Shown here: piece after piece, positions 3,804 through 60,348 of the stretch
Numbering within the stretch: the first letter of the stretch is position 1
Layout: the number at the start of each line of letters is the position of its first letter
Assembly (NCBI RefSeq): GCF_022693705.1
Contig: NZ_CP094288.1
Coordinates: 884,443-948,442, forward strand
Direction of reading: 5' to 3'
Length of the DNA: 64,000 bases
From: Infirmifilum sp. NZ
GTDB taxonomy: Archaea > Thermoproteota > Thermoprotei > Thermofilales > Thermofilaceae
Notes under the pieces: model-generated
Told to the model about the DNA's origin: nothing
Seen by the model: the letters and a program-made list of their open reading frames with translations, nothing else
Databases searched by the model: none
Made by a program: the position numbers and the translations under genes

Positions 3804-5033
3804 ATGGCTAAAGCATACTTGTTGCTAAACCCCCTTGCTGTATACTTGCTCGATGAGGGGGGAGAGGCTAAAACGTTCTACAAGCTGTACAGAGATGATA
3901 TCTCCCGAGAAAGATATCTTGAGCTCCTCTACGATATGGAACAAGGAAAATTACCAGAAGAGATCCTGGAGTTTATTGCAAGAAGCGTTGAACCCGGAGA
4001 CGAGCTGGTCGTTGAGGACAGCGATCTGGGGAGGTTCATCTCATCTAAGCTAAAAGATGTTAAGGTAGTACCTGCAGCTGGAAACGAGGTAATGCTAAAA
4101 GCTAGGGAAAACATAGCAAATCTCATCGAGACGTCTCTCGGAGTGAGCGCACAAAAATATTACAGTTTGCTCCACGAGTTGACGCTTCAGCTAACTCGGT
4201 TAAAGGTTAAGGAAGTTGCCGAAAAGCGGGACCTGTTCGTCGCCCAAGCGATCAACGCGCTGGATGATGTAAACAAGACAATCAATCTGTTCGCCTCTAG
4301 GGTTCGAGAGTGGTACAGCCTGCACTTCCCAGAGCTAGATGAGCTTGTAGATGAGCATGAAGACTATTTCAGAATCGTCAGCAACATAGGATTCAGAGAC
4401 AAGATAACTAAGGAGAAGCTACTCGAAATTGGATTGAAGGAGGACCTAGCTGAGAAGATAGCGAACGCAGCTAAGTCCAGCATGGGAGCAGACCTCACGG
4501 AATTTGACCTCGAGGCGATCCGCCTTATATCAGACACAGGTCTCAGACTCTATGCAGTTAGACGTAGCCTTGAGAGGTACATCGACGAGGCAATGTACGA
4601 AGTCGCACCGAACATCAGGGGACTTGTAGGCTCGTTGCTGGGAGCGAGGCTCATTTCACTAGCTGGTGGCTTGGATAAGCTTGCCAAGCTGCCTGCCAGC
4701 ACAATCCAGGTTCTGGGGGCTGAAAAGGCGCTTTTCAGGGCGCTAAGGTACGGTGCAAAGCCGCCTAAGCACGGCGTAATTTTCCAGCACCCCTTGATCC
4801 ATAAATCCCCGAAGTGGCAAAGGGGAAAAATCGCTCGAGCCTTAGCTGCCAAACTAGCTATAGCAGCACGCATAGATGCATTTTCCGGTGAGTACCGCGC
4901 TGACGAGCTCAGGGAAGATCTTGAGAAGAGGGTTGAAGAGATAAAAACGCTATACGCCAAACCCCCAGCTAAACCTGAAAAAACCACTAAAGCTAGAAAG
5001 GGTGGTAAACACCATAAGGGTGGTAGAAGATGA
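3804..5033 (+). CDS. nop5: C/D box sRNP protein Nop5 (Nop56/58 homologue)
   Basis: The scaffold protein of archaeal C/D box sRNPs, which binds L7Ae-bound sRNA and recruits fibrillarin for 2'-O-methylation. The protein has about 409 residues: an N-terminal fibrillarin-binding domain ([16 protein letters not shown]), a central coiled coil, the NOP domain around 265-320 with the signature [20 protein letters not shown] and the following [14 protein letters not shown], and a lysine/glycine-rich tail. The ATG at 3804 begins the family N-terminus; the frame is open further upstream, but only through the divergent gar1 promoter region. The stop overlaps the fibrillarin start as ATGA, indicating a translationally coupled operon. 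Confidence 0.96.
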
Positions 5034-5731
5034 TCAGAGCGCTGAAAGTTAGAGAACATGAGGAGTTTCCCGGAGTCTACGTGGTAGACTTTGAGGACGG
5101 GAGCAGCAAGCTTGCTACGATTAACCTAGCGCCTGGAATCAAGGTCTACGGGGAGCAACTTGTCAGCATTGGAGGCAAGGAGTACAGGATCTGGAATCCC
5201 TATAGAAGCAAGCTTGCTGGAGCAATATACAAAGGCCTAAAGACGAATCCCATTAAACCAGGTACCAAGGTGCTATACTTAGGGGTGGCATCAGGCACCA
5301 CTCCAAGCCACGTTTCGGACATTATTGGGCCATCGGGTGTTCTATACGGAGTAGAGTTTGCTCCAAGGGTGATGAGAGAGTTCATCGAGAAAGTTGCCGT
5401 CCACAGGAGCAACGTGATACCACTCCTAGCAGACGCCAGGTTTCCATCGAAGTATGCACACTTCGTTGAGGCGGTAGACGTCATTTACGCCGACATAGCT
5501 CAACCCTTCCAAAGCAAGTACGTTGCAGACAACGCTGACATGTTTCTAAAGAAGGGTGGGTGGATCATGATGGCAATAAAAGCGATGAGCATCGACGTAA
5601 CAAAAGCACCGTCTGAGACCTACAAAAGGGAAATGGATGAGCTAGAACGCCGCGGGTACAAAGTTAAGGAATCTTTACACCTCGAACCATACGACGAGGC
5701 GCATGCCTTCGTCGTTGCCCAGAAGCTATAA
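5030..5731 (+). CDS. flpA: Fibrillarin-like rRNA/tRNA 2'-O-methyltransferase
   Basis: A 233-residue fibrillarin, the catalytic subunit of the C/D box sRNP. The SAM-binding motif [17 protein letters not shown] is near residue 82, followed by the fibrillarin signature YGVEFAPRV and the acidic motif YADIAQP. The C-terminal segment [15 protein letters not shown] is also typical. The start overlaps the nop5 stop by four bases. Together with L7Ae (54593-54976) and the sRNAs at 46803, 54358 and 60290, the window encodes a complete guide-methylation system. Confidence 0.97.

Positions 5732-25114: not shown

Positions 25115-25128
<14 letters not shown>
25087..25128 (-). repeat. 3' half of the pre-23S processing stalk (bulge-helix-bulge)
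   Basis: On the RNA strand this pairs with 28202-28243. The outer helix is 15 bp (25087-25101 with 28229-28243), then a 3-nt bulge AAA (25102-25104), a 4-bp central helix GCAC/GTGC (25105-25108 with 28225-28228), and a 20-bp inner helix (25109-25128 with 28202-28221). This is a canonical substrate for the archaeal tRNA-splicing endonuclease. Confidence 0.93.
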
Positions 25129-28201
<3,073 letters not shown>

Positions 28202-28208
<7 letters not shown>

Positions 28209-28243
28209 GGTGTGAGCCTGATCTGCACACTCCTACGCGGCGC
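28202..28243 (-). repeat. 5' half of the pre-23S processing stalk (bulge-helix-bulge)
   Basis: Pairs with 25087-25128. The 3-nt bulge on this strand is AGA (28222-28224 on the plus coordinates), on the opposite side of the 4-bp central helix from the AAA bulge of the partner, as required for a bulge-helix-bulge. Confidence 0.93.
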
Positions 28244-52545: not shown

Positions 52546-54348
52546 ATGGAGGCTTCTCATGACAGCTATATTAGGGCTCCTATTGTTGTCGTACTCGGAC
52601 ATGTAGATGCGGGAAAAACTACTCTCCTGGATAAGATCAGGGGCACAGCTGTCGCGAGGCGAGAACCGGGAACGATGACACAGCACATAGGGGCTTCATT
52701 CCTTCCGTGGAAGGCTCTCGAGGAGATCTCGGGCCCCCTCCTCAGCCAGCTACGGGTGGAGATAAAGATACCCGGCTTTCTCGTTATCGATACACCAGGT
52801 CACGAGGCCTTCTCCAACCTGCGGTCACGGGGGGGAAGCATCGCGGACATAGCTATCCTGGTAGTGGACGTTCAGAGGGGTTTAGAGCCGCAAACGTTCG
52901 AGTCTATTGAGATTCTCAGAAGCAAGCGCGTTCCCTTCGTCGTCGCCGTGAACAAGATCGATAGGATACCCGGCTGGAAGAGCAACCCGGATAGGCCTTT
53001 CATAGAGTCAGTGAGGCTGCAGGATGAAAACGCGGTTTTGAGGCTCGAGGAGAACCTCTCGTACATCATTGAGCAGTTCAGGTCTATAGGGTTCCGCGCA
53101 GACAGGTACGACAGGATAAAGGATTTCACCAAAGTGCTGGCGCTCGTTCCCGTAAGTGCCTTGACCGGTGAGGGACTTCCCGACCTCCTGCTGGTTTTGG
53201 CAGGGTTGTCGCAACGCTTCCTCATAAAGAGGCTAATCGCAAAGGTGGCTCCCGCCCGTGGCGTCGTCCTGGAGCTCAAAGAGGAGGTTGGTTTGGGGAC
53301 AACTGCCACAGTGATAGTGTACGATGGAGTGCTGAAGAAGGGAGATCTTGTGGTCGTTGGGGGTCTCGAGAAACCCATAATTACCCGCGTGAGGCTCCTT
53401 CTGATGCCAAAGCCTCTCGACGAGATGCGCTCACCCGAGGACCGCTTTCTTGAGGTCGACAAAGTATTCGCCGCGGCAGGAGTTAAGGTTGTGGCGGAGG
53501 GGCTTGACGCCAGTGTTCCGGGTGCTCCCTTGATAGTTGTTCCGAACGAGGAGAGTGTGAGCCAGGCTGTCAAAGAGGTTCAGGAGGAGGTTCAGGCCAC
53601 GAGGTTTCAAAGAGACATCGCAGGGGTTGTCGTGAAGGCAGACACCCTGGGGACACTCGAGGCTCTCGTTGGGTACTTGAAGAAGAACAACATACCGGTC
53701 AGGCTTGCCGATGTCGGCCCTGTCGCCAAGAGAGATGTTGTTGAGGCCAGCTTCGTTAAAAGCCTTGACCCGGCCTTAGCTGCGATACTCGCTTTCAATG
53801 TCAAGGTTTCCCCGGAGGCTCGCGAGGAGGCGGCGCAGAAAGGTGTTCCGATTTTCACAGAGCGCATAATTTACAGACTGGTGGAGGACTACATGAAATG
53901 GCACCTTGAGCAGAGACAGCTTGAAAAGAAAAAGCTCTTCGAAAAAATCACTCCACCCGCGGTCGTCCAAATACTTCCGGGATACGTCTTCAGGCGAAGG
54001 GATCCCATAATAGTAGGCGTTCGCGTCGTTGCTGGCAGGCTAAGACCCGGCGTTAGGTTGATCACAAGGGATGGTAGAGAAATAGGCGACGTGATGCAGA
54101 TAAGAGAGCATGACCGGGTGTTGGAGTCGGCTGAAGAGGGCGCCGAGGTTGCCATATCAATTAGGAGCAAGGCCATGGTGGGCAGGCAGGTAGATGAGGG
54201 AGACTACCTCTATACCGATATACCCGTAGACGAGATTAACCTTCTGCTGGAGAAGTACTCTAGCGATCTAACAGAAAATGAGAAGGAATACCTTAGAAAA
54301 CTCCTCAAGTTCAAGCTGAAGCTGGCCAGCGAGATAGAATTCCCTTAG
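52546..54348 (+). CDS. infB: Translation initiation factor aIF5B (IF2)
   Basis: A 600-residue GTPase that joins ribosomal subunits. G1 GHVDAGKTTLLD is near residue 18, the switch segment TMTQHIGASFLP follows, G3 DTPGHEAF near 82 and G4 NKIDR near 136. Domains II-IV follow with AGVVVKADTLGTLEALV and the C-terminal TVVQ-like VVQILPGYVFRRRDP. Length is normal for archaeal aIF5B. Confidence 0.96.
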   Translation: MEASHDSYIRAPIVVVLGHVDAGKTTLLDKIRGTAVARREPGTMTQHIGASFLPWKALEEISGPLLSQLRVEIKIPGFLVIDTPGHEAFSNLRSRGGSIADIAILVVDVQRGLEPQTFESIEILRSKRVPFVVAVNKIDRIPGWKSNPDRPFIESVRLQDENAVLRLEENLSYIIEQFRSIGFRADRYDRIKDFTKVLALVPVSALTGEGLPDLLLVLAGLSQRFLIKRLIAKVAPARGVVLELKEEVGLGTTATVIVYDGVLKKGDLVVVGGLEKPIITRVRLLLMPKPLDEMRSPEDRFLEVDKVFAAAGVKVVAEGLDASVPGAPLIVVPNEESVSQAVKEVQEEVQATRFQRDIAGVVVKADTLGTLEALVGYLKKNNIPVRLADVGPVAKRDVVEASFVKSLDPALAAILAFNVKVSPEAREEAAQKGVPIFTERIIYRLVEDYMKWHLEQRQLEKKKLFEKITPPAVVQILPGYVFRRRDPIIVGVRVVAGRLRPGVRLITRDGREIGDVMQIREHDRVLESAEEGAEVAISIRSKAMVGRQVDEGDYLYTDIPVDEINLLLEKYSSDLTENEKEYLRKLLKFKLKLASEIEFP

Positions 54349-54357
54349 AATCACTTA

Positions 54358-54416
54358 AAAATTCAGTTCATGAATGGCTCGTCACCGCTAGGCACTCGGC
54401 AAACTCATCATCTAGG
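54358..54416 (-). ncRNA. C/D box sRNA targeting two 23S sites
   Basis: On the minus strand: C box ATGATGA (54405-54411), D box CTGA (54363-54366), and a C'-like GGTGACG in the middle. A CTATATAAAGC TATA box centred near 54438 is 26 bases upstream of the C box. The D guide contains CCATTCATG, identical to the complement of 23S at 26081-26089; the D' guide contains TTTGCCGAGT, identical to the complement of 23S at 26353-26362. Two guide matches make this a strong call. Confidence 0.85.
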
Positions 54417-54449
54417 AAGGGTTTCCTCGCGGCTTTATATAGTTTTGCC

Positions 54450-54530
54450 GCATTCGGGTTGACTCGATGCAGGGAGCTGCTTGAATCGAGGGTTCTGCGA
54501 GAGCAGTTTCTGTCACCTAGAAAAAAAATC
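54450..54530. other. Paired hairpins between the sRNA and rpl7ae
   Basis: CTCGAT/ATCGAG enclosing GCAG-GGAG-CTGC (from 54465), then CTGC-GAGA-GCAG with a GNRA loop. The bidirectional-looking TATA at 54433-54443 could also drive a plus-strand transcript starting here. No box motif was found. Confidence 0.3.
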
Positions 54531-54592
54531 AAAAAACTTATAAGCTGGGGGAGAGCTAGTGGTGGCGAAAAGATGAGCGATCGGTGAGCGAT

Positions 54593-54976
54593 ATGTCGAA
54601 AAAGCCGTTTTACGTGAAGTTTGAAGTACCGCCCGAATTAGCCGAGAAAGCATACCAGGCTCTTTCAACTGCAAGAGAGAAGGGGGGGAAGATAAGGAAA
54701 GGTGTTAATGAAACAACGAAAGCCGTCGAGCGCGGGCAAGCAGTGCTCGTCCTAATTGCAGAGGACGTGGATCCACCGGAAATTGTTGCACACCTGCCAC
54801 TACTGTGTGAGGAAAAGAAGATACCTTATGTCTACGTACCGTCGAAGGAAAGGCTTGGCAAGGCTGCTGGCATCAACGTGGCTGCTTCCGCAGCGGCGAT
54901 AATAGAACCCGGGGAGGCTAAAGGGCTGGTGGACGAGATAGCACAGGAGGTTAACAAGCTGAAGGTATCAGCCTAA
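54593..54976 (+). CDS. rpl7ae: Ribosomal protein L7Ae (kink-turn binding)
   Basis: A 127-residue L7Ae, a subunit of ribosomes, C/D and H/ACA sRNPs and RNase P. The RNA-binding signature [20 protein letters not shown] is near 33, then [20 protein letters not shown] and [17 protein letters not shown]. The ATG at 54593 has GGTGA upstream; the GTG at 54584 is the alternative. A CTTATAAG box is near 54537-54544. It precedes S28e, the usual archaeal order. Confidence 0.96.
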
Positions 54977-60289: not shown

Positions 60290-60348
60290 TGATTGATGAT
60301 GAAAAAACGCCGACAGAGGGGTGACGATCAGGAGTACCTCTGACGTCG
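60290..60348 (+). ncRNA. C/D box sRNA targeting 16S
   Basis: C box ATGATGA (60296-60302), C'-like GGTGACG (60320-60326) and D box CTGA (60340-60343). The D guide contains CAGGAGTACC, identical to the complement of 16S at 29219-29228; by the N+5 rule the predicted target is the A of GGUACUCC. An AATGTAAAA element lies about 30 bases upstream. No rRNA match was found for the D' guide by eye; it may target tRNA. Confidence 0.8.

Follow-up and report, generated by a model that had tools for sequence, protein, structure and literature searches.

The 64,000-nt window that we analysed (the whole stretch of DNA under study, from an archaeal genome of 1,829,130 bp in a single contig) very probably carries, on its minus strand, a gene for an archaeal C/D box sRNA that has two guides and would be transcribed on its own, as predicted from its sequence. 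In kind this sRNA is ordinary, a conventional archaeal rRNA-methylation guide for which Rfam 15 has no family. The initial annotation had proposed a C/D box sRNA with both guides directed at 23S rRNA, and this proposal is borne out by the boxes, the complementarity, the homologues, the guide-target covariation and the position of the promoter. For the sRNA at 54363-54411 the comparative evidence is far stronger than the chance statistics. A purely visual reading of the sequence had found a small-RNA gene missed by Rfam, and a C/D sRNA family is added that is kept across the Thermofilales and beyond, with covariation between guide and target. Otherwise, the sRNA would be an everyday part of ribosome biogenesis in a hyperthermophile.

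Box architecture, promoter and genomic context

A scan for box architecture identified, on the minus strand from 54411 to 54363, the succession ATGATGA-GTTTGCCGAGTG-CCTA-GCG-GTGACGA-GCCATTCATGAA-CTGA (Table 1). The element has the hallmarks of a C/D sRNA, namely a RUGAUGA C box, a CUGA D box and internal C' and D' boxes at guide-length spacing, and the mature RNA probably extends over about 54358-54416. The C box, D box and C'-like box that had been claimed without a strand are all present on the minus strand. A plus-strand reading was ruled out, since boxes, guides and promoter all lie on the minus strand. A strong terminal stem was not found in the sRNA of this species (CCTAG / AATTT); many archaeal C/D sRNAs lack a terminal stem. 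Homologues of family f44 have a conserved GGCC/GGCC terminal stem.

The TATA box begins about 30-31 nt upstream of the C box. It had been described as lying at the right distance, and its position is common to the homologues: across 30 of them, the A+T content peaks at 0.75-0.81 between -35 and -26 upstream of the C box, with values of 0.43-0.59 in the other upstream bins and of 0.24 across the five bases that directly precede the C box. Transcription is predicted to start at or just before the C box.

The flanking genes encode aIF5B, which is 99% identical to that of Thermofilum sp. NZ13, and L7Ae. The three proteins L7Ae, Nop5 and fibrillarin are all encoded within the same window as the sRNA. 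The L7Ae gene has a TATA-like element, CTTATAAG, and its leader is about 25 nt long (54530-54596, plus strand). No k-turn was detected in this leader, where no fold was better than those of shuffled sequences (z -0.4); Thermoproteales have been reported to be without an l7ae 5' UTR (PMC5539422).

Separately, we observed a second C/D sRNA candidate at window positions 60296-60343 on the plus strand, with the arrangement ATGATGA AAAAACGCCGA CAGA GGG GTGACGA TCAGGAGTACCT CTGA. Its D guide matches 10 nt of 16S rRNA at 635-644. In the related genome G004, the homologue of this second candidate stands directly upstream, in tandem, of the copy of the 54363-54411 sRNA.

Table 1. The sRNA gene, its 23S rRNA targets and the associated protein-coding genes, in window coordinates.
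Feature	Position	Strand	Basis
C/D box sRNA from C box to D box (49 nt)	54363..54411	-	architecture scan and homologues
C box ATGATGA, exact consensus	54405..54411	-	architecture scan
D' guide GTTTGCCGAGTG, 12 nt; TTTGCCGAGT pairs 10 nt with 23S	54393..54404	-	complementarity and homologues
D' box CCTA, degenerate; TTGA/CTGA in most relatives	54389..54392	-	homologue alignment
C' box GTGACGA, 1 mismatch to RTGATGA	54379..54385	-	architecture scan
D guide GCCATTCATGAA, 12 nt; CCATTCATG pairs 9 nt with 23S	54367..54378	-	complementarity and homologues
D box CTGA, exact	54363..54366	-	architecture scan
TATA box CTATATAAAG, sRNA promoter	54433..54442	-	sequence; A+T peak in 30 homologues
23S target of D' guide, ACUCGGCAAA; predicted Cm at window 26359	26353..26362	-	complementarity, alignment
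23S target of D guide, CAUGAAUGG; predicted Um at window 26087	26081..26089	-	complementarity, alignment
L7Ae, k-turn-binding C/D sRNP core protein, divergent neighbour	54593..54976	+	Pfam PF01248, E=1.5e-31
aIF5B/IF-2 gene, convergent neighbour, ends 15 nt beyond D box	52546..54348	+	Pfam
Nop5 domain, core sRNP protein	4260..4937 (G000:C1:888702-889379)	+	PF01798, E=1.1e-76
Fibrillarin, C/D sRNP methyltransferase	5048..5722 (G000:C1:889490-890164)	+	PF01269, E=4.9e-101

Target sites in 23S rRNA

The Rfam scan of the window located the archaeal 23S rRNA at 25121-28209 on the minus strand, together with 16S rRNA and tRNAs, and returned no small guide RNA. The two longest matches of the sRNA to rRNA are 10 nt and 9 nt long, and each covers the N+5 nucleotide; the exact complementarities of 10 and 9 bases put forward in the initial annotation are confirmed at exactly 26353-26362 and 26081-26089. 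Alignment with MG1655 rrlC places the D' guide match at 23S 1848-1857, with C1851 (E. coli 1672) as the predicted site, and the D guide match at 23S 2121-2129, with U2123 (E. coli 1967) as the predicted site. The N+5 nucleotides named beforehand, the C in ACUCGG and the U in the D guide target, are therefore the right ones. The register of the D' guide is fixed by the relatives, which carry a canonical CTGA or TTGA at the position of CCTA. For the same reason we rejected an alternative register in which the D' box would be CTAG, one base later, with N+5 on U1850.

In the Rfam consensus structure of the archaeal LSU, both targets fall within one single-stranded junction of domain IV, the one that helix 61 closes. 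They are about 270 nt apart in sequence and close in secondary structure, the arrangement of a long-range double guide of the chaperone type. The region of domain IV around the helix-61 junction is a hotspot of archaeal methylation (PMC4644070).

We also noted that in three genomes (G016, G377 and G107; L201, L202, L229, L230, L234 and L235) the 23S match is split at the same position by about 140-580 bases. The split corresponds to window 26126/26127, near E. coli 1927/1928, and falls between the two sRNA targets. It is probably a site of archaeal 23S introns.

For a random 12-nt stretch of the window, a Watson-Crick run over N+5 of at least 10 nt has a probability of 0.013, and one of at least 9 nt a probability of 0.061. 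The chance of less than 1 in 200 that had been quoted for the 10-base match was somewhat optimistic, because several offsets count; what stands is the rarity of the combination, with a probability still around 1e-3 for both matches within intact boxes. The box architecture itself occurs twice in the real window, compared with about 0.005 times in a random strand of 59 kb, and no double guide match appeared in sets of 60 and 200 random strands.

Conservation and guide-target covariation

A DNA search of relatives, in which the sRNA was used together with its flanks, found strong matches for the most part within the 50-60 nt of the sRNA. For the homologue search, we used a sequence-only model (R1). 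Matches to R1 were found in 20 of the 27 Thermofilales genomes searched, and in 18 of these 27 the match was full length with E <=2.2e-12 (<=1.7e-12 in all except G024, at 2.2e-12). One of the two remaining matches, in G021, retains the D' guide and has a different D guide. The other is in G010, a genome of the same family, where the two guides occur in separate sRNAs. At the level of the phylum, full-length homologues are present in families f44, f39, f46, f47 and f66, full-length matches extend to other classes, and most of the other matches span one guide only.

An alignment of 16 homologues shows that both guide cores and the C, C' and D boxes are kept, with free drift elsewhere. The D' core, T or C followed by TTGCCGAGT, occurs in all 30 full-length homologues (as TTTGCCGAGT or CTTGCCGAGT), and its distance to the D' box is constant. 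The two nucleotides that precede the D box vary in identity (AA, GA, CT, CG, TG and others) and number exactly two in nearly all 30 homologues; since the length of this spacer is fixed, N+5 stays on the same U. The comparison with related genomes suggested in the initial annotation thus showed that the Thermofilales and further classes of the phylum keep both guide cores, the boxes and the spacing from guide to box.

The genes around the sRNA differ between genomes. Within the compared set, only G005 shares the position adjacent to aIF5B, and the G004 copy lies about 1.1 kb beyond the aIF5B gene. Because the neighbourhoods differ, it is the RNA rather than the locus that is conserved, and the conservation is not carried by a neighbouring gene.

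In several homologues (L127, L130, L131, L128 and L153), the D'-C' spacer has grown into a short hairpin, with examples such as TAGCC-GAGA-GGCTA and CCC-TAGA-GGG, which turns the internal k-loop into a capped k-turn.

Guide-target pairing finds its decisive support in a base change in the 23S target that is matched by a base change in the guide. The Thermofilales have the target CUCGGCAAA (CGGCAAA) and the guide TTTGCCGAG (TTTGCCG), and in G171, G166 and G240 (f44), G128 (f39) and G156 (f46) the target is CUCGGCAAG (CGGCAAG) and the guide CTTGCCGAG (CTTGCCG). In the three other families, 23S was found for these five genomes, all of which show the change, and the guide fits the target in every one of the 15 genomes where both were seen. 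A guide that pairs with its target would be expected to carry T opposite a target A and C opposite a target G. The covariation may go back to one evolutionary event that related families then inherited. An apparent second case in G120 (guide TTTACCG) was discarded, as its 23S has CGGCAAA, which makes the pair a mismatch and not a covariation.

Proposed mechanism and alternative explanations

We propose that the sRNA would form a k-turn at C/D and a k-loop at C'/D', and that the folded RNA would bind L7Ae, Nop5 and fibrillarin. In the assembled particle, the D' guide would direct 2'-O-methylation of 23S C1851 and the D guide that of U2123, the methylated nucleotide in each case being the one paired five bases upstream of the box. 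The weakest step would be methylation by the D' guide in this species, given a D' box that has drifted to CCTA, and the D' half may be less active here. The D' box is degenerate in the species of the window, in the same-species genome G061 (CCTA) and in G005 (CCAA), as opposed to the TTGA or CTGA of most other relatives. These boxes could also be taken to mean that the sRNA is degraded here, its D' box decayed and only the D guide active. We consider this improbable, since the D' guide core is perfectly kept, the C' box is good, and G022 and G024, which have CCTA or CGTA at D', also keep the guide core. Still less credible is a chance resemblance in an intergenic spacer from which no RNA is made, an explanation that we regard as extremely unlikely: a single guide match is not rare at the probabilities given above, but no double match arose in 260 random strands, and the element is conserved without synteny and with guide-target covariation. 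It is also very unlikely that the element is a cis-regulatory k-turn that would sense L7Ae and act on the adjacent L7Ae gene. Its place between the aIF5B and L7Ae genes would suit such a role, as would the precedent, from Sulfolobus and other archaea, of an L7Ae that autoregulates its own mRNA by way of a k-turn in the 5' UTR (PMC5539422). However, the element is on the opposite strand, with its own promoter, upstream of the promoter-like region of L7Ae; the other genomes examined have it away from L7Ae, and its guides match rRNA.

A different function for the same RNA is possible, if somewhat unlikely: the guides might serve mainly as a folding chaperone for 23S domain IV, with methylation secondary or partial. 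One target closely follows the 5' strand of helix 61 and the other closely precedes its 3' strand, so that pairing with both would bring the sides of the junction together. The presence of both targets in one helix-61-closed junction despite their separation in sequence is consistent with this role. So is the precedent of Tte sR51 and Iho sR114, whose guides join roughly the same two 23S regions and for which a chaperone role has been proposed (Dennis et al. 2015, PMC4644070, Table 3), and so is the retention of the two-guide pairing in 18 Thermofilales genomes and in other classes. On the other hand, both guides hold closely to the N+5 spacing, which would be expected if methylation is important, and the guides are found in separate sRNAs in Sulfolobales-like genomes and in G010, which argues that the bridge is dispensable in those genomes. 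The separate guides of G370 and G120 also speak against a chaperone role, as does the combination of the D' guide with other guides in G041 and G048. Selection on the guide pair itself, with one RNA bridging the sides of the helix-61 junction during assembly, seems unlikely to us. The lineages with separate guides (Sulfolobales-like genomes and G010) would constitute a natural experiment on bridging versus methylation, and guides on one RNA or on two would offer a clean comparison for double guides as rRNA folding chaperones.

Relation to known guide RNAs

As a conventional methylation guide, the reading that we prefer, the sRNA resembles known archaeal C/D box sRNAs in its C, D', C' and D boxes, its two 12-nt guides, the N+5 rule, its size, and the presence of L7Ae, Nop5 and fibrillarin in the genome. 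It differs from them in its guide pair, which is outside every Rfam 15 family, and in having its own TATA box, a feature of only about 20% of archaeal C/D sRNA genes according to the passage of PMC7994747 that cites Tripp et al. 2017. The likeness to T. tenax sR51 and I. hospitalis sR114 is in guides that join roughly the same two regions of domain IV, whereas at least one predicted methylated position differs, as estimated from E. coli anchor positions only and not from guide sequences.

Yeast snR75 (RF01185) has a guide that holds CCAUUCAUG and pairs, in a sub-threshold alignment, with the same 23S/25S segment. In contrast to the present sRNA, its guide-to-D-box distance puts N+5 on a G three nucleotides upstream. 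Given this shift and a match below threshold, the resemblance does not count as homology by the criterion tested. The existing Rfam C/D families (sR3, snoPyro_CD and others) were rejected as well, the best score being 15.9 bits against gathering thresholds of about 40, and no Rfam C/D family matched the homologues of the sRNA above threshold. A weak sR38 match in the L7Ae coding region was judged to be due to chance. Our literature search for the guide sequence returned only irrelevant papers.

Outside the one-RNA arrangement, G370 (L203/L204) and G120 (L205/L206) have the two guides in two sRNAs that share a strand and are separated by about 3-4 kb, a layout that suggests splitting or joining of guide modules. 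In G041 and G048, the D' guide is joined with other guides, even in the D position. The occurrence of the D' guide with varied partners or on separate RNAs is in keeping with the shuffling of guides that Dennis et al. describe (PMC4644070).
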